DNA of 41,407 bases from Verrucomicrobiota bacterium (GTDB lineage: Bacteria > Verrucomicrobiota > Kiritimatiellia > SS1-B-03-39 > UBA6053), in the NCBI GenBank assembly GCA_020831635.1, contig JAFIGC010000037.1, forward strand, positions 1-41,407. The letters run 5' to 3'. Of this stretch, positions 5,911 through 17,343 are shown piece by piece; positions within the stretch are counted from its first letter, which is position 1; every line of letters begins with the position of its first letter. The translations under genes were made by a program, and so were the position numbers. The notes below the pieces were generated by a model. The model did not search any database. It was not told the origin of the DNA and was given only the letters and a program-made list of their open reading frames with translations.

Positions 5911-7251
5911 TCAAATTTTTCCGGTCACCAGGCGTTCCTGTTCGATTTCAGCTTGTTTGCGTTTGCGTGACCCGCTTTTCCGATTTCTTGGCTGTATGGG
6001 GACCTGTACATCCCAGTATTTTGCGGCACGAGTCATGTCCATGTCAAGCAAAGCTGGATCACCAAGTTCGAGCATGCTTTCCGATTTTTCAGGCTGAACA
6101 CCCATTGCCTGCATTATTACACCCCCAACGGCTCGTGCCAAAGGCGGGGGGACGGAATTTCCAATTTGTCTGGCGCCGTGCCATTTCGTCACGTGAAAAC
6201 GAAACCAATCTGGATATCCATGTAACCGGGCCATTTCGCGAACCGTGATGCATCGTGGTTTTTGGTAATGGATCGGCCTAGGACTTGTAAAAGCCCCGCG
6301 GGAAGAATCCGTTCCCGCGCGCAAGGTGTTGCATTGGCCTTTGGGGTGCAACTTGAAGAATCTTGAGATCGGCTCGACCTCTCCGGGCGGGGTATTTTCG
6401 AATCTCCGGCGCGATATTTCCGTGTGCGAGGTGCGGGCGCTTGATGTCAAAACCGCTGGATTCCATACCCTTGGCGATCCGTAATGCCAACAATTCCGGG
6501 TCAAACAGCGCATTTCCTGTGCAAATTCGCTTTGTGATTCCCAAGGAGATACTTGAACTGAATCACATTGGGAGAGGTCTTCGAAATTTTCACAGTCAGG
6601 TAAATCCCCCAAGGCTTCTTCACATGTTGGGATAGGCCGGGTTTCATCGGAGGCAAACAGGTCTCCGTAATTTCCCGTAAAAGCCGTGGGATATTCAGGG
6701 AGGGGCAATCCGGTTTTCGCACCGATTAGAAATAGACGCTCCCGGTGTTGTGGCACGCCATAATGCTTGGCATTCAATACCTTCCAAGGATTCAGCACTT
6801 GATATCCCTGCCTGCGAAACGCTTCGATCAAGTGATTTAAAAATGTACGGTGCTTGCCAATGGTCAAGCCTTTCACATTTTCAAAAACAAAATATTTGGC
6901 ATCCAATTCCACCACAAGCCGAACAAATTGCCCCACCAGTCGGTTCCGCGGATCGTCCAGCATTCTCTGCCCTATCAGGGAAAAGCCTTGGCAAGGCGCA
7001 CCGCCAAAAACCACATCAACAGGACGGGAGGAGACCGATCCACCCACTTCGGACAGAATTTGCGCCCCTCTCAAACCGACTACCGAGCGAGCCAAAGTGG
7101 TGGTTTTGGGGAAATTAAATTGATGGGTGGCGGCATGGATGGGATCAATTTCTACGGCAGCAATCACGTCAAACCCCGCTTGCTCAAATCCTAGAGACAT
7201 CCCTCCGGCTCCGGCAAATAAGTCCACGGCAATGGGTTTGGCTTTCTTCAT
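5911..7251 (-). CDS. DNA (cytosine-5-)-methyltransferase
   Basis: This 446-residue protein has all the main C5 methylase motifs. They are DLFAGAGGMSLGF (SAM binding, residues 10-22), PCQGFS with the catalytic Cys87, ENVKG (124-128), QHRERLFLIGA (168-178) and GNSVPPPLA (364-372). The variable target-recognition region lies between about 180 and 330. The C-terminal 60 residues are an extra basic tail (RNRKSGSRKRKQ). It modifies a cytosine in a specific site to protect DNA from the nuclease encoded directly downstream. The start ATG is 46 nt from the end of the oxidoreductase gene. It is a restriction-modification unit, not an orphan Dcm. Confidence 0.92.
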   Translation of the reverse strand: MKKAKPIAVDLFAGAGGMSLGFEQAGFDVIAAVEIDPIHAATHQFNFPKTTTLARSVVGLRGAQILSEVGGSVSSRPVDVVFGGAPCQGFSLIGQRMLDDPRNRLVGQFVRLVVELDAKYFVFENVKGLTIGKHRTFLNHLIEAFRRQGYQVLNPWKVLNAKHYGVPQHRERLFLIGAKTGLPLPEYPTAFTGNYGDLFASDETRPIPTCEEALGDLPDCENFEDLSQCDSVQVSPWESQSEFAQEMRCLTRNCWHYGSPRVWNPAVLTSSARTSHTEISRRRFENTPPGEVEPISRFFKLHPKGQCNTLRAGTDSSRGAFTSPRPIHYQKPRCITVREMARLHGYPDWFRFHVTKWHGARQIGNSVPPPLARAVGGVIMQAMGVQPEKSESMLELGDPALLDMDMTRAAKYWDVQVPIQPRNRKSGSRKRKQAEIEQERLVTGKI

Positions 7252-7297: not shown

Positions 7298-8818
7298 TTA
7301 TTCATTCACCCGCCCGTTCACCCAAGCCGGACGGTGCAGGGTGGGTTCGCATTCTTTGCCGCCTCCTTGGTGTAGCCGCTCCACGCATTCGTAGCCTTGG
7401 GCGAAGCTGTGGTCTTGATTGGAGACCTCGTACTTCCAGGCCCCGAAGCGTCCGCGGCTGTAGATGTCCTTTTTCTCGAAGGCGCGGAGGACCGGGTCCA
7501 CCACTTGATCACGTCCCAGAAACGGGGTGGGATATCCTTTGGGCAGCCGGCGATGGGTGGTGCCGATCACGGCCCCGGTGTCGGGGATCAGACCGTCTTC
7601 GGTCAAGGCGCGCAGGGTGTCCGCCACCAGGGTTTCTTTTTCCACGGGTTTGTGGGGGCTTTCCGAAATTTCGGCCATGAGCGACCATTGTTCTCCGGGT
7701 CGGGGGACGTTGTTGGGACTGTAATGGCTGAATTGGGTGACCCGATAGTAGGGGCTGTGGGCCTCGGGAAAATACATCCAGCATTTGCCGGACAGTTCCG
7801 ACGGGGCCTGTCCCCATAATCCCACCCCCACGATGTGGGTGGCGGAAGAGACAAGTTGTCCGGCGGTTTCCGACGGTGCCACGCCGGGGCAGAGGCGGAT
7901 GAGATCGTCGAGCGGCAACGTGGACAGCAGTTCCTGGTACCGCACCCGCAGCCCGCTTCGGGTTTCCACGATTTTCTCCACGGGATCGATGCGCACCACG
8001 GGATCGCCATAATGACAGCGTTCGGCGGGCAGCTTGGCGGCCACCGCTTTCCACACCGCCCCGGTGCCGCCGTGACGCGGAAAACGAAAGGTGGCGTTGG
8101 GTCCCCAGCTTTTGTGATCCTCCCCGCTGCGAATGGACCGCATCACTTGCGCCATCTCCGGCACCGCCACCCGCTCGCCAATCCAATGATGGTCCATCCG
8201 TTCCAAAGGACAGGCCCACACCTTGAAATTATAGGGGTTCATAAACAATTCCGCGATCCCCTCGCCGAAAACCGACAGCACCCACTCGCCGAAATTTCGG
8301 GGCCTGTCCCCGATTGACCCGACATATTTTTCGGGGCCTGTCCCCGTTTGACCCGACATATTTTTCGGGGCCTGTCCCCGTTTTACGCCCTGAAGTTTGA
8401 CGGGGCCTGTCCCCGTTTTTTTTCCCGGATTTTGACGGGGCCTGTCCCCGTTCGCGGCTTGCAGGCCGGCGAGGCAGCGGTCGCGGTCGGCGGGGTCGAG
8501 GCGGTGGAGGTTGAGCTGGAAGGGATAGGGGACCCAACGGTTTTTGAAGCGGATCCAGCTTTCGCGCTGGTGTTCGATCCATCCGTCGGGACCGAGGGCG
8601 AGGTCCATGTGGCGGTCGAAGGTCTTGTAGTGGGAAAACTGGACGTGTCCGCCGAGGTCCCAAGTGAAGCCGTGTTCGTCCACAAAGGAGGAGGCGAGGC
8701 CGCCGGGGGTGTCGGCGGCTTCGAGAAGTTGCCAGTCCATGCCGTGCTCCCCGGCCCGGGTGGCGGCGCCGAGTCCCGTGGGGCCGCCACCAATGATGAG
8801 GAGCCGGGTGCGGATCAT
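7298..8818 (-). CDS. FAD-dependent oxidoreductase (amine oxidase / UDP-galactopyranose mutase-like) with an in-frame repeat insertion
   Basis: The gene encodes 506 residues. The N-terminal Rossmann motif LLIIGGGPTGLGAATRAGE, the ELLEAADTPGG-type motif (LLEAADTPGGLASSF) and DLGGHVQFSHY place it among FAD proteins of the protoporphyrinogen oxidase / UDP-galactopyranose mutase type. Such enzymes often act in cell-surface sugar or lipid modification; the substrate here is unknown. Residues about 123-174 are an insertion encoded by five copies of a 15-bp palindrome, read in all three frames (NGDRPR, TGTGPV, RGQAPK, TGTGPE, GDRPR). After it, the family sequence resumes at NFGEWVLSVFGEGIAELFMNPYNFKVWA. 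The insert lies in what is normally a loop, so the enzyme may still work. The gene follows alaS with a 3-nt gap and probably shares its transcript. Confidence 0.8.
   Translation of the reverse strand: MIRTRLLIIGGGPTGLGAATRAGEHGMDWQLLEAADTPGGLASSFVDEHGFTWDLGGHVQFSHYKTFDRHMDLALGPDGWIEHQRESWIRFKNRWVPYPFQLNLHRLDPADRDRCLAGLQAANGDRPRQNPGKKTGTGPVKLQGVKRGQAPKNMSGQTGTGPEKYVGSIGDRPRNFGEWVLSVFGEGIAELFMNPYNFKVWACPLERMDHHWIGERVAVPEMAQVMRSIRSGEDHKSWGPNATFRFPRHGGTGAVWKAVAAKLPAERCHYGDPVVRIDPVEKIVETRSGLRVRYQELLSTLPLDDLIRLCPGVAPSETAGQLVSSATHIVGVGLWGQAPSELSGKCWMYFPEAHSPYYRVTQFSHYSPNNVPRPGEQWSLMAEISESPHKPVEKETLVADTLRALTEDGLIPDTGAVIGTTHRRLPKGYPTPFLGRDQVVDPVLRAFEKKDIYSRGRFGAWKYEVSNQDHSFAQGYECVERLHQGGGKECEPTLHRPAWVNGRVNE
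8298..8450. repeat. Five copies of the palindrome CGGGGCCTGTCCCCG at 34-35 nt spacing, inside a gene
   Basis: Exact copies lie at 8298-8312, 8332-8346, 8366-8380, 8401-8415 and 8436-8450. Each is a near-perfect stem (CGGGG..CCCCG). The spacers are 19, 19, 20 and 20 nt and T-rich. The first two are almost the same (TTGACCCGACATATTTTT), and the third and fourth differ. The array is 153 nt, exactly 51 codons, so the host gene stays in frame. It behaves like an expanding, mobile hairpin word rather than a CRISPR array. Confidence 0.85.
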
Positions 8819-8821
8819 GGC

Positions 8822-11503
8822 TCAGGCCTGCAATTGACCCACCAGCAGCACCGGAACCGAGGCCAGGGCGTCCGCCAGCGCTTCGGGGTCTTTGCCGCCG
8901 GCCTGGGCGCGGTCGGCTTTTCCGCCCCCGCCGCCGCCGCACATTTTGGCGATGGGGCCCACCAATTTGCCGGCATGGGCGCCCCGGGCCTGACATTCTT
9001 CGGCCACGGACACGTTGAAAACGACCTTTCCGTCGGAAATCCCGGCGAGCACAATCACGGCGGGGTCGATTTTCGGACGCAATCCGTCCATCGCTTCCCG
9101 AAGTCCGTCGGCATCCACGCCTTCCAAGCGGGCGGCGAGCAATTTGACCCCCTGGATGTCCTGCACACCCGCAATCAGATCGGAAGCCATGTCCCGCGCG
9201 GAGGCGGCTTTGAGTTCTTTGAGTTCTTTTTCGACTTCCCGCAGCTTGTGCAAAACCGACTGCAGGCGAATGGGCGCCTCCTCGGGTTTCACGCTGAGTT
9301 CGCCGGCAACGCGGTGCAGCAGTTCGTGCTCGCGGGCGGTGTATTCGCGGGCGCTGTGGGCGCACACGGCTTCAATCCGCCGCACCCCGGCGGAAATGCT
9401 GCTTTCCGCGACCAGGCGGATTTGTCCGATTTCCCCCACGCGCCGCACGTGGGTGCCGCCGCAAAGTTCTTTGCTCCAGCCCCCGATATCGACGACCCGG
9501 ACGACGTTGCCGTATTTTTCTCCGAACACCGCCACCACGTCCTCGGGTTTTTCGTCGAACGCCACTTCGTAATCGACCACGGATTCATCGTCGTAGAGGC
9601 GGTCGTTTACGAGTTGCTCGATCTCGCGGAGTTCTTCGGCGGTGAGGGCCTGGAAGTGGTTGAAATCGAAGCGCAGACGGTCGGGGCTCACAAAAGATCC
9701 GGCCTGGCGCACATGATCGCCAAGCTTTTCGCGCAGGGCCCAGTTGAGAATGTGGGTGGCGGAATGGTGGCGCTGAATCTTCCGCCGACGGGGCACGTCC
9801 AAGGTCAAGAGTACCTCCTCGCCTTCGGCAAAGGCGGCGTCGCCCGCCAACAGATGCAAATAACGTCCGGCGTCGTCTTTGACGGTATCGAGGATTTTCG
9901 CGCCGCGATCCCCGGCGGACACCGTGCCCTGATCCCCGATTTGTCCGCCCATCTCGGCATAAAACGGGGTGGAATCGGTGACCAGATAGCGGCGGTCGCC
10001 GGATTCGACCACGGCCACCACCTTGGCGGCGTGGTTTTCCCACGTGACCGGATCGAAGCCGACGAAACGGGTGGCTTCCCCGTCCCCGCTGTCGGCCACT
10101 TTAATGACGCTCTTTTTCTGGGCATCGCGCGCCCGCTGACGCTGGGCCTGCATGGCGGCTTCAAAGCCCTCGAAATCCACTTCCAGTCCCCGCTCGCGGG
10201 CGAGGATTTCGGTGAGATCGAGGGGGAAGCCGTAGGTGTCGTAGAGCGTGAAGGCATCCTTGCCGGAAATGCGCCCATCGGCTTGATCGGCGATAGAGGC
10301 AAAAAGATTGATGCCGCGATCGATGGTGCGGTCGAAAGCGGATTCCTCGGCGCGGAGGACTTTGCGCACCACATCGGCCTGTTCGCGGAGTTCGGGGAAA
10401 ACGGGACCGAGGTTTTCGATGACCGGTTCGGCCAGGGCGGTGAAAAAGCCGGGTTCGAGGTTCAGACGGCGTCCGTACATGACCGCGCGACGCAGAATGC
10501 GGCGCAGCACGTAGTTGCGTCCTTCGTTGCCGGGCAGAATCCCGTCGGCCACCGCCAGGCAGAGGGTGCGGATATGATCGCCCAATACCCGGAAGCAAAT
10601 GTCGCGGGCTTCGTCGTCGGTGGGATTGCGGGCGTCGACGGGCAAGGTGGCGCCGTATTGCAGGCCGCACATGCCGGAAATCGTATCGAAAATGCCTTTG
10701 AAGAGGTCGGCGTTGTAGTTGCTGGGGGCGCGGGTGAAGTCGGTAAAGCCTTTGGTGGTGGCCAAAATGCCGGCCACGCGCTCGAAACCCATGCCGGTGT
10801 CCACGTGACGCGCGGAAAGGGGCTGAAAACCGCCGTCCTCGTTTGCGTTGTATTGGATAAACACCAAGTTCCAAATCTCAATGCACCAGGGGTTGTCGGC
10901 ATTGACGAGTTTGCCGCCGCTGTCGCCTGCCGGGGTCAGGTCCATGTGGATTTCGGAACAGGGTCCGCAAGGTCCGGTGTCTCCCATCATCCAGAAATTG
11001 TCCTTTTTGTTGCCGCGCACGATACGTTCGGCGGGGTCCAGGCCCTCGCGCTCGAAAATGGCCTTCCAGTAATCGTAGGCCTCCTGGTCGAATTCGGCGG
11101 GATCGCCCTCGTCGGGTTGATAGACGCTGGCGTAGAGGCGTTCCTTGGGAAAACCCCAGACCTTGGTCAGCAGTTCCCAGGCCCATTCGATGGCCTCTTC
11201 TTTGAAATAATCGCCAAAGGACCAATTGCCGAGCATTTCGAAAAAGGTCTGGTGATAGGTATCGTACCCGACGTCATCGAGATCGTTGTGCTTGCCGCCA
11301 GCGCGGATGCACTTCTGGGTGTCGGCCACCCGGGAATGGGGGGCGTCGCGGTCCCCGAGGAAATAGGGCACGAAGGGGTTCATGCCCGCGTTGGTGAACA
11401 GCAGGTTCGGCGAGGAGGGCAACAGCGAGGCCGAGGGCACGATGTGGTGGCCCTTGGAGGTGAAAAAATCGAGAAAACTTTGGCGTACGTCGGAAGAGGT
11501 CAT
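8822..11503 (-). CDS. alaS: Alanyl-tRNA synthetase
   Basis: The protein is 893 residues from ATG 11503 (family about 870-900). It charges tRNA-Ala. The N-terminal class II catalytic domain reads SFLDFFTSKGHHIVPSASLLPS, FTNAGMNPF and TFFEMLGNWSFGDYFK. The editing domain carries RHHSATHILNWAL (HxxxH zinc ligands) and ELCGGTH (the Cys/His pair). The C-terminal oligomerisation domain (C-Ala) ends in a Gly-rich CGGGGGGKADRAQAGG motif. I chose the second of two tandem ATGs (11506/11503), giving MTSSDVRQSF, as in other family members. A longer start at 11539 is possible. The FAD oxidoreductase gene follows 3 nt after its stop. A pair of inverted repeats lies upstream. Confidence 0.95.
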   Translation of the reverse strand: MTSSDVRQSFLDFFTSKGHHIVPSASLLPSSPNLLFTNAGMNPFVPYFLGDRDAPHSRVADTQKCIRAGGKHNDLDDVGYDTYHQTFFEMLGNWSFGDYFKEEAIEWAWELLTKVWGFPKERLYASVYQPDEGDPAEFDQEAYDYWKAIFEREGLDPAERIVRGNKKDNFWMMGDTGPCGPCSEIHMDLTPAGDSGGKLVNADNPWCIEIWNLVFIQYNANEDGGFQPLSARHVDTGMGFERVAGILATTKGFTDFTRAPSNYNADLFKGIFDTISGMCGLQYGATLPVDARNPTDDEARDICFRVLGDHIRTLCLAVADGILPGNEGRNYVLRRILRRAVMYGRRLNLEPGFFTALAEPVIENLGPVFPELREQADVVRKVLRAEESAFDRTIDRGINLFASIADQADGRISGKDAFTLYDTYGFPLDLTEILARERGLEVDFEGFEAAMQAQRQRARDAQKKSVIKVADSGDGEATRFVGFDPVTWENHAAKVVAVVESGDRRYLVTDSTPFYAEMGGQIGDQGTVSAGDRGAKILDTVKDDAGRYLHLLAGDAAFAEGEEVLLTLDVPRRRKIQRHHSATHILNWALREKLGDHVRQAGSFVSPDRLRFDFNHFQALTAEELREIEQLVNDRLYDDESVVDYEVAFDEKPEDVVAVFGEKYGNVVRVVDIGGWSKELCGGTHVRRVGEIGQIRLVAESSISAGVRRIEAVCAHSAREYTAREHELLHRVAGELSVKPEEAPIRLQSVLHKLREVEKELKELKAASARDMASDLIAGVQDIQGVKLLAARLEGVDADGLREAMDGLRPKIDPAVIVLAGISDGKVVFNVSVAEECQARGAHAGKLVGPIAKMCGGGGGGKADRAQAGGKDPEALADALASVPVLLVGQLQA

Positions 11504-11558
11504 CATGTCATTTGTCCGGTAAAGGTGAACGGGGGGCATTTCCCTAATGGATTCAGAG

Positions 11559-12591: not shown

Positions 12592-13299
12592 CGCGGATTT
12601 TATCGGCAACCAAAAAGGGAAGTGATACCAACGGATGGCTGCGCCGGACAACGGATAAGAGATGGTCGAACATCGAACGTCCAACATCGAACGTTGAAGT
12701 GAGGGGAGAAGGGGGACAGGAGCGCCGATCTCCGCATCGGCTGGGGCGGAGGGGGCTTTCGAGTGCGGAGTGTCGAATGCGGAGTGCGGAGTGGGGTCGA
12801 ACATCGAACTTCCAACATCGAACGTTGAAGGGAGGGACAGGCAACCCCGACACCTTTCCCTCTGCGCCCTCTGCGCCCTCTGCGCTCTCCTGTTCAAAAT
12901 ACATGCTGGATGGAAAACCGGAGGAACAGAAGAAAATTTTGGACTGAAAATCTGCTTTCCGACACCCGGAAAGCACTGGAAAAATTCTTCCGATGCTCGG
13001 AAACCGCTTGATCCTTTGAGGTCCGGACCCCAACGGGGTCCCACCCGTCAGCCCGGCGGCAACGCCCCGGGAAATGGAACCCACCCTCCTTTGCCGACCC
13101 CAACGGGGTCGTACTCCTCCCCTTCAGGCATAAGTTTCCCTCCTTTCCCCTTTGAACCCTCCGCATCCATCCTGTTTGAAATTTCCGGAATATAAGCTTG
13201 TGCATTCTTTTCAATCCGCCTACCATTTCGCCATGATCAATTTATTTTCAGATTTTTTCTGATTGGGTTATGATCGTAAATTTCAACATGTAGGTTTTT
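12592..13299. repeat. Repeat island with several word-like and hairpin repeat families
   Basis: About 700 nt without a credible gene. The 36-nt block GGTCGAACATCGAAC.. recurs at 12664-12699 and 12795-12830 with one mismatch. A reverse copy of the GCCGATGCGGAGATCGGC block lies at 12711-12755. GGAGTGC-type 7-nt words run over 12761-12795. CCCTCTGCG is repeated three times in tandem at 12858-12884. Stem-loops CTTTCCGACACCCGGAAAG (12955-12973) and CTTCCGATGCTCGGAA (12988-13003) follow. The compound repeat has GACCCC-AAC-GGGGTC at 13026-13040 and again at 13096-13110, 70 nt apart. From about 13190 the sequence becomes AT-rich up to the next gene. Confidence 0.75.
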
Positions 13300-15905: not shown

Positions 15906-16888
15906 CCTTGCGACAAACTCCCGAAGCCATTGACTGGCACGCCCTCCGAGAACTCCGCGACCTTTTTCTCGCCGCCGAACCCGTGGAGCGGCCCTACTGG
16001 GTTTCCCGCGATCAGCTCGACGCCTACGACCGCACCCTCGGCGAACGCATCGGATGGAAATGGGATGCCGTCCTCACCGAACTCAAAGCCCGCAACTGGT
16101 CCCCGCCCTCGCGGAAACTCACCGACTTCGGATGCGGCACCGGCATCGCCGTGCGCCGTGTGCTGCATGCGTTTCCCGGCGCCTTCGACGAAGTGATCCT
16201 CCACGACCATTCCGCCATCGCCATGGGTTTTGCCCGGGAGCGCATCCAGGCCGAACATCCCGGCACCCCGATCCGGCTCGGGGAAAACGAAATCCCCGCC
16301 GAAGGCGTCGTGCTCATCAGTCACATCCTCAACGAACTGCCTCCCGAAAAACTGGCCGAACTCCCCGAAGTCCTCGCCAAGGCCGACGCCCTCCTCTGGG
16401 TCGAACCCGGCACCATGGCATGCAGCCGTGCCCTCATCGCCGCCCGGGAAAAGCTCCGCGCAACCCACACCCTGGTCGCCCCCTGCCCCCACCAAGGCGC
16501 CTGCGGACTCCTGCTGGAGGAAAATGCCGCCCACTGGTGTCATCATTTCGCCCCCGCCCCCGCACACGCCCACCAGGATCCTTTCTGGGGACATTTCCGA
16601 CGCGAAATGAACCTCGAAATCGGCCCCGTCGCCTACAGTTTTCTCGTCACCGACAAAACCGCCAAACCGGATGCCGGCCTGTCCCACCTCATCGGCAAAC
16701 CCCTCCGCGTTCCCAAATACCTCCGCGTCCTCAGTTGTCAGGAAAGCGACATTGCCGAACTCGTCGCCAGCCGCAGATCCGGTTCCGTGTACCGCGACCT
16801 CAAAGGCCCCGCCTCCCCCGCCCTCTACAAATTCGAACGCCGCAAAAACCGGATTGTCGGCGGCGAGTGGGTGGGGAATGGGGAGTGA
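15902..16888 (+). CDS. Rsm22-family (mitochondrial small-subunit assembly-like) methyltransferase
   Basis: The gene encodes 328 residues. LTDFGCGTGIAVRRVL (73-88) is a SAM-binding motif I. LISHILNELP (138-147) is motif-IV-like. CPHQGACGLL..NAAHWCHHF (195-215) is the Cys-rich motif of the Rsm22/METTL17 family, whose cysteines bind an Fe-S cluster in characterised members. Family members assist small-ribosomal-subunit assembly; the bacterial role is not settled. The start at 15902 overlaps the glycosyltransferase stop (ATGA). A much longer upstream frame is antisense-type read-through. The C-terminus runs straight into GGGGAGTGACGGG-type repeats, so the last residues may derive from a repeat insertion. 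Confidence 0.8.
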   Translation: MTLRQTPEAIDWHALRELRDLFLAAEPVERPYWVSRDQLDAYDRTLGERIGWKWDAVLTELKARNWSPPSRKLTDFGCGTGIAVRRVLHAFPGAFDEVILHDHSAIAMGFARERIQAEHPGTPIRLGENEIPAEGVVLISHILNELPPEKLAELPEVLAKADALLWVEPGTMACSRALIAAREKLRATHTLVAPCPHQGACGLLLEENAAHWCHHFAPAPAHAHQDPFWGHFRREMNLEIGPVAYSFLVTDKTAKPDAGLSHLIGKPLRVPKYLRVLSCQESDIAELVASRRSGSVYRDLKGPASPALYKFERRKNRIVGGEWVGNGE

Positions 16889-17343
16889 CGGGTGACGAGT
16901 GCGGAGTGCGGAGTGCGGAGTGCGGAGTGCGGCGCAGCCGCTTTGGAGTGCGTGTAGCGAGTGCAACGAAGCTACCGCTTTTCAACGCTCATTTCCAACG
17001 ATGAGCGCTGTTGTGGGCGCAAAGGTGGTAAAGCGGTAGCTTCGCGGTGCTCGCTACACGCACTCCAAAGACGCTTCGCGTCGAGGAAATATTCGAACAA
17101 GAAGCCCTCCGACGGGTCCCACGGGTCAGACGGGTCCGACAAAACAAGAATTTTTAATTCCCTGTTCGATCCCCCCTTCGCCCCTGCCGATGCGGAGATC
17201 GGCGCTCCTGTCCCCGTGGCCCCGCAAAACCCGAGATCAGTGGAAATCAGTGCATCAGCGGTTGAATTCCCAAAAAGTTTTTCGAACGGTATCCAATTCA
17301 GAAATCTCCTTTTCATTCGATAGGAATTCTGTATGGATGTCAT
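16889..17343. repeat. Repeat island: tandem 7-nt words, inverted arms, shared blocks
   Basis: AGTGCGG is repeated in tandem over 16898-16931. 16942-16980 and 17031-17069 are imperfect reverse complements (TTTGGAGTGCGTGTAGCGAG../..CTCGCTACACGCACTCCAAA) and belong to the same family as the arms at 13871/14033. Inside the loop, GCTCAT/ATGAGC forms a further small stem. GACGGGTCC-type words are at 17108-17140. The GCCGATGCGGAGATCGGC block is at 17171-17216, and GATCAGTGGAAATCAGTG words at 17233-17263. No gene seen. Confidence 0.75.

Follow-up and report, generated by a model that had tools for sequence, protein, structure and literature searches.

The locus raises the question of why an enzyme gene should carry, in frame, a cluster of identical short palindromes, and by what route they came there. 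The window analysed was a stretch of 41,407 nt from a Verrucomicrobiota bacterium (GenBank:JAFIGC010000037.1). Five exact copies of CGGGGCCTGTCCCCG were located at 8298–8450, with plus-strand starts at 8298, 8332, 8366, 8401 and 8436 and start-to-start spacings of 34, 34, 35 and 35 nt, which reproduced exactly the five identical copies at 34–35-nt spacing described in the initial annotation. This array lengthens the gene by about 50 residues. The features referred to below are as follows.

5911–7251, minus strand: C5-cytosine DNA methylase, downstream neighbour (context)
7298–8818, minus strand: host gene, a UDP-galactopyranose mutase-like flavoprotein of 506 aa by sequence and fold, with the insert at residues ~123–173
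7802–7816, minus strand: sixth word in the same gene, with one end mismatch; the sister genome (G002) has the same 13-mer
8298–8450, minus strand: five REP-like hairpin words in an array (coding strand: CGGGGACAGGCCCCG), 34–35 nt apart, from word matches, repeat finder and folding
8298–8312, minus strand: word 5 in gene order, common to the sister at the same site
8332–8346, minus strand: word 4, without sister counterpart, its 34-nt unit identical to that of word 3
8366–8380, minus strand: word 3, without sister counterpart
8401–8415, minus strand: word 2, without sister counterpart
8436–8450, minus strand: word 1 in gene order, common to the sister, where it reads GGGGACAGACCCC
8822–11539, minus strand: alanyl-tRNA synthetase, upstream neighbour (context)

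Tandem Repeats Finder reported a 34-bp array at 8295–8418 and 8291–8452, and the window held 13 word matches with up to 3 mismatches versus 3.8 expected from shuffles. On the coding (minus) strand, each unit reads AAC-GGGGACAGGCCCC-G followed by a spacer. In gene order, the 34 nt of units 3 and 4 were identical, units 1 and 2 had only the word and the following GTCAAA in common, and unit 5 had its own 3′ flank, continuing into ordinary gene sequence. The single strand was predicted to fold into a hairpin with a 5-bp stem and a 5-nt loop (z about -2.5 to -3.2). At the sixth word (7802), insertion was ruled out, homologs being of equal length there (GL.GQxP). Two other tandem repeats were also present in the window, a heptamer (GTGCGGA) in about nine copies at 16871–16932 and a nonamer (CCCTCTGCG) in 3.6 copies at 12858–12889.

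Regular spacing, together with a single strand that folds better than shuffles (z -2.8), might point to a CRISPR array or to a structured regulatory RNA on either strand. Against this, the repeats are 15 nt long, the 19–20-nt spacers are partly identical and the whole lies inside a conserved reading frame, and we regard the probability of such an origin as practically negligible. A CRISPR was ruled out by the shortness of the repeats and their position within the reading frame, and the Rfam search returned no meaningful match, only a chance match to a miRNA.

The host ORF (7298–8818) is open over its full length. It had initially been called an FAD oxidoreductase; the flavoprotein part of this call stood, Pfam covering the FAD-binding part of the protein only, and it was unspecific in that sequence and predicted fold both identify the product as a predicted UDP-galactopyranose mutase (UGM). 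The sequence search matched 4dsg, a UGM, with an E value of 2.5e-130, and the model superposed on solved UGMs at 39–43% identity with a TM score of 0.87 (A. fumigatus UGM). In the alignment to 4dsg, the insert falls into the segment bounded by residues 124 and 133, which is a short linker in that protein and in other relatives. Alignment with homologs confirmed that residues ~123–173 are missing from them, and a search for the same insert in distant homologs found none. In the AlphaFold2 model, pLDDT fell below 50 at residues 128–167 only, between two confident helices. With the array excluded, dN/dS versus the sister was 0.12, indicating purifying selection; this is therefore a working gene in which the insert is tolerated, and the insert peptide looks like a tolerated by-product.

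In another Verrucomicrobia MAG (L047:2864–2963), the same UGM loop contained an unrelated palindromic insert, GTCCGCCGAAGCCTTGGCGAAGGCGG, encoding the peptide RRSLGEGG, and five matches to GTCCGCCGAAGCCTTGGCGAAGGCGG with up to 3 mismatches were found in that MAG. The UGM loop is thus a tolerant site used by two different palindromic repeats.

The site was then compared among close relatives. The congeners G001 and G003 have a short linker at the UGM loop with zero words, whereas the sister G002 (89–95% protein identity) has two words in the same loop, matching the outer two of the five, and the three inner words lie within the 114-nt net length difference between the two genomes. The counts of five here, two at the same site in the sister and none in the two congeners bear out the earlier suggestion of a stepwise local expansion; because units 3 and 4 are identical, a recent duplication in this genome was argued. 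Copy numbers unlike those of the sister were also seen in other arrays, namely in a comEC-like gene and an AraC-type regulator. The array in the comEC-like competence gene (L185:1459–1600, contig C167 of this genome) has a 33-nt period and two words, one of them decayed, versus three in the sister; it is absent in G001 and G003. With zero, two and five copies at one site in close relatives, the UGM loop provides a natural series for the entry and growth of a REP-like element inside genes.

The window derives from a 308-contig assembly, and short reads resolve a perfect tandem duplication of 34 bp poorly, which would speak for an assembly artefact of the draft genome. However, both flanks and words 1 and 5 recur in the separate sister genome, spacers 1 and 2 are unique and the frame is open, so an artefact is very unlikely.

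Searching the genome for the 15-mer supported the initial suggestion of a mobile hairpin word, which proved to be dispersed. There were 39 exact copies and 77 with at most one mismatch, and the 13-mer core GGGGACAGRCCCC occurred 88 times in this genome (G000) and 65 times in the sister. Eight other genomes of the family had 0–2 cores each (two in G001, none in G003 and 0–2 in six further members), and controls with the reversed pattern gave 0–1. At the fetched loci, the word was found 39 times, whereas the 119 alternative arrangements of its five codons together gave two matches; as these loci had been picked for the word, only the control figure is free of bias. In the phylum, 17 of 289 genomes contained the 15-mer. 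A flank consensus AAAAC...GAAAA surrounds the core in arrays and is weaker at isolated coding copies; in other families of the class, the core is unchanged and the flanks are different. The flank consensus has neither GTAG/GTGG nor CGTC as a tetranucleotide at the foot of the hairpin. By a rough, codon-usage-based gene call, 48 of the 77 fetched words (~60%) fall within predicted genes (21 sense, 27 antisense); words also occur between genes and next to transposase genes. The word was not printed in any paper of the open literature collection searched and may appear elsewhere.

Two further observations were made on word-bearing loci. A spermidine-synthase-like gene of this genome (L156; G001 contigs C473 and C520) is 87% identical to that of G001, other genes being at about 64%, and carries the only exact 15-mer of G001; transfer or bin contamination is possible for this gene. 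In addition, two GGGGTCTGTCCCC words 24 nt apart (L299 in G002, L310 in G000) lie in a stretch of more than 50 nt that is identical in both genomes, unlike its surroundings.

Dispersal on this scale bears on whether the array is an ordinary local minisatellite in which slippage multiplied a single 34-bp unit without any mobile element. The identity of units 3 and 4 over 34 nt and the copy-number differences from the sister, in this array and in that of the comEC-like gene, would agree with such an origin, but the core is common to dozens of unlinked loci with different spacers, in further families of the class it lies next to genes for transposases, and the slippage-like look is confined to the last expansion step. 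We therefore consider a minisatellite to be improbable in the extreme range, at about the same level as an assembly artefact.

It had also been proposed that the word is part of a mechanism adding loop peptides to proteins, with reading in three frames and no stop as a striking property. The three frames were recovered (GDRPR, GTGPV and RGQAP), but stop codons are absent from all six frames of the 15-mer, so stop-free reading is unremarkable; of the three sense frames, two are open across the entire array. An adaptive device, in which words are selected since the encoded loops change protein function, would account for an in-frame insert in a conserved gene. Yet, from gene to gene, the word is read in either orientation and in each of the three frames, the loop is predicted to be disordered, and copies also occur in intergenic regions, antisense to genes and beside transposases. 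It thus appears that the DNA word is propagated and not the peptide, and the loop-peptide proposal was abandoned as having hardly any probability.

Among the 21 Y1_Tnp matches in this genome are two genes for REP-associated tyrosine transposases (RAYTs) accompanied by the word. An inverted word pair is located ~100–200 bp upstream of a 342-aa RAYT gene on contig C15, and word variants lie ~55–100 bp upstream of a second RAYT gene (357 aa) on C232 (C114 being its counterpart in G002). Both genes and their upstream words are kept in the sister, whose RAYTs are 81% (the ortholog) and about 52% identical to the C15 protein. The HuH histidines and the catalytic tyrosine (H63, H65 and Y183) were invariant, the Pfam Y1_Tnp match was above cut-off, and the best PDB fold was 4er8, a REP-associated tyrosine transposase bound to a REP hairpin; the NCBIfam REP_Tyr_transpos score was 64.7 bits, below the cut-off of 80. 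Taking all Y1_Tnp genes of the genome as partners was ruled out, as most have no nearby word.

In this genome, in the sister and in more distant genomes, the word was found 55–300 bp from genes for Y1/REP-type tyrosine transposases. The RAYT gene of G065 has four words per side in opposite orientation, that of G207 has one word on either side, and words adjoin RAYT genes in G256 and G112. Assuming 15 Y1 genes per genome, and in genomes chosen for having words, the closeness had P values of about 0.004 (G207), 0.003 (G256) and 1e-8 (G065). Among ten other genomes of the family, close forms of the two RAYTs occurred in the word-rich sister only, and the other members, all word-poor, had RAYTs of a ~400-aa clade or none; this co-occurrence concerns two sister genomes of one lineage and could be explained by a single evolutionary event. 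None of the fetched RAYTs of the ~400-aa clade had a word nearby, in other genomes such a word was likewise missing near many RAYT homologs belonging to this superfamily, and the plasmid search gave only distant RAYTs (24–28% identity). An array of a second word type, GGGGACAGACCCCTT..., with a copy number strongly unlike that of the sister, was observed at L309:1000–1250 (contig C225 of this genome). This word type resembles the words upstream of the C232-type RAYT, a sequence likeness which suggests that there may be two RAYT/word pairs.

The position of the word inside coding sequences was examined against orthologs of G001 and G003. Apart from the window array, 22 of 29 coding word sites aligned without gaps and 7 with gaps. 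At the ungapped sites, nearly all orthologs lack the word, and they match on average 8.3 of 13 bases versus 4.1 for other in-phase positions; exact words found by search tend to have near-match ancestors, so this resemblance alone proves nothing. In polA, for example, two congeners have CGGGGTCAGGCGCCG and CGGGGGCAGGCTCCG where this genome has CGGGGACAGGCCCCG, RGQAP being conserved and the changes synonymous; an RsmF-like gene keeps RGLSP at the word site, and a MATE transporter gene has two words where the congeners have other residues, with equal alignment lengths. The telling point is the number, some twenty in-place words versus 0–2 words in all in other genomes of the family.

Sequence conservation was compared in 28 orthologous word pairs of G000 and G002, located through the proteins and not the words. 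Divergence was 4.1% in the word (3.0% without the R position) versus 14.7% in the flanks. Because only words intact in G000 had been taken, the fair neutral expectation is half the divergence rate of the flanks, and word divergence was below it with P values of 0.008 (4.1%) and 0.0005 (3.0%), which are approximate, the sites being not all independent.

In-place words would fit templated replacement by single-stranded word DNA, or uptake-like drive or binding-site selection, routes that differ in the intermediate states they predict. We offer as a tentative possibility, with the odds against it, that the word spreads mainly by being written over near-matching coding sequence and not by insertion, either through RAYT-processed single-stranded hairpins that template short replacements or through an uptake-like drive. 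If true, codons of core genes would be edited, at unchanged gene length, by a DNA word linked to a transposase, and a long RAYT clade would have a cognate hairpin.

The same data could be read without a mobile element at the origin: the word would be a DNA site under selection or propagated by drive, comparable to DNA uptake sequences (DUS/USS) or to other protein-bound words, and built by in-place substitution in permissive coding sequence, with the arrays secondary. The 22 ungapped sites, with congener orthologs at 8.3 of 13 bases versus a background of 4.1, and the divergence lower in words than in flanks both fit, and neisserial DUS have been reported as highly conserved and commonest in permissive core-genome sites (PMC2397512). 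Nevertheless, about 90 copies per 6 Mb are far under DUS/USS abundance, and tandem clustering at 20–35 nt and the association with RAYT genes are foreign to uptake sequences. We judge such a site to be an unlikely explanation overall.

We conclude, with a probability of roughly 0.78, that the array represents a cluster, inside a gene, of a REP-like hairpin element (core GGGGACAGRCCCC), locally expanded in a tolerant loop, and that its cognate enzyme is most likely the ~340-aa HuH/Y1 RAYT encoded elsewhere in the genome. As the two outer words are common to both genomes, words would have reached the surface loop of the UGM gene before the split from the sister. The RAYT may move or copy the word, and the extra copies were probably made by local duplication, most recently by an exact tandem duplication of 34 bp. 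Since additional disordered residues are tolerated in the loop and the word contains no stop in whichever frame it is read, in-frame variants would persist, with purifying selection presumably retaining in-frame states only.

Several findings run against a REP-like element. There is no GTAG/GTGG guide tetranucleotide as in canonical REPs; since this tetranucleotide is defining, the word was filed as REP-like and not as a canonical REP. Movement is deduced, no event having been seen directly; ~60% of the copies are in predicted coding sequence and REPs are usually intergenic; and the 22 ungapped coding sites are not predicted by plain insertion. The many RAYT homologs without a nearby word, and the origin of the RAYT co-occurrence in a single lineage, weigh in the same direction. 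The word family is a likely partner of the long RAYT clade. The dissemination mechanisms of REP words are described as poorly understood (PMC8266576). If the in-place pattern holds, how REP words spread becomes testable.

Among known systems, the DUS of Neisseria and the USS of Pasteurellaceae occur in hundreds to thousands of copies, about one per kb, with no transposase link. Like them, the words described here are short, occupy permissive coding positions and are better conserved than their surroundings; unlike them, they have a density of about one per 68 kb, form 34-bp arrays and are linked to a transposase. The Rickettsia palindromic elements are in-frame palindromic repeats inside protein-coding genes, some of them longer than the present word. 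They share with it the in-frame position of palindromes in genes and differ in sequence (PMC3733652).

Intragenic REPs of the GTAG/CGTC super-families are RAYT-linked short palindromes, some of which lie inside ORFs; clusters in Thauera and Rickettsia conorii were reported to encode 43–82 aa, DNA polymerase I was among the tagged genes, and intragenic REPs were accommodated by linkers or loops (Di Nocera et al. 2013, PMC3733652). The RAYT-linked palindromes, the clusters within ORFs, polA and the tolerance of loops are all alike here, whereas the GTAG/CGTC tag is missing, the arrays are direct repeats instead of mostly head-to-head dimers, and most comparable coding copies align without length change. 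In REPtrons, an HuH/Y1 gene is flanked by its own hairpin family, and in-frame REPs occur in genes including tnpA-REP itself (Quentin et al. 2018, PMC6006769). An HuH/Y1 transposase gene with flanking hairpin words was likewise found here, but the RAYT, of ~340 aa with long extra domains, resembles subclass 2.3 in length, and for that subclass no REP-like structure was found (PMC6006769). REPINs are RAYT-linked dispersed doublets, also in tandem arrays (Bertels and Rainey 2011, PMC3116915); the inverted word pair upstream of the RAYT gene and the tandem arrays are similar, while the words here are mostly singlets or direct repeats in far fewer copies. Thus, intragenic hairpin repeats, in-gene REP clusters and tandem REP arrays have all been published, whereas no description of the present word family was found in the open literature collection searched, and the word often lies inside genes without changing their length.
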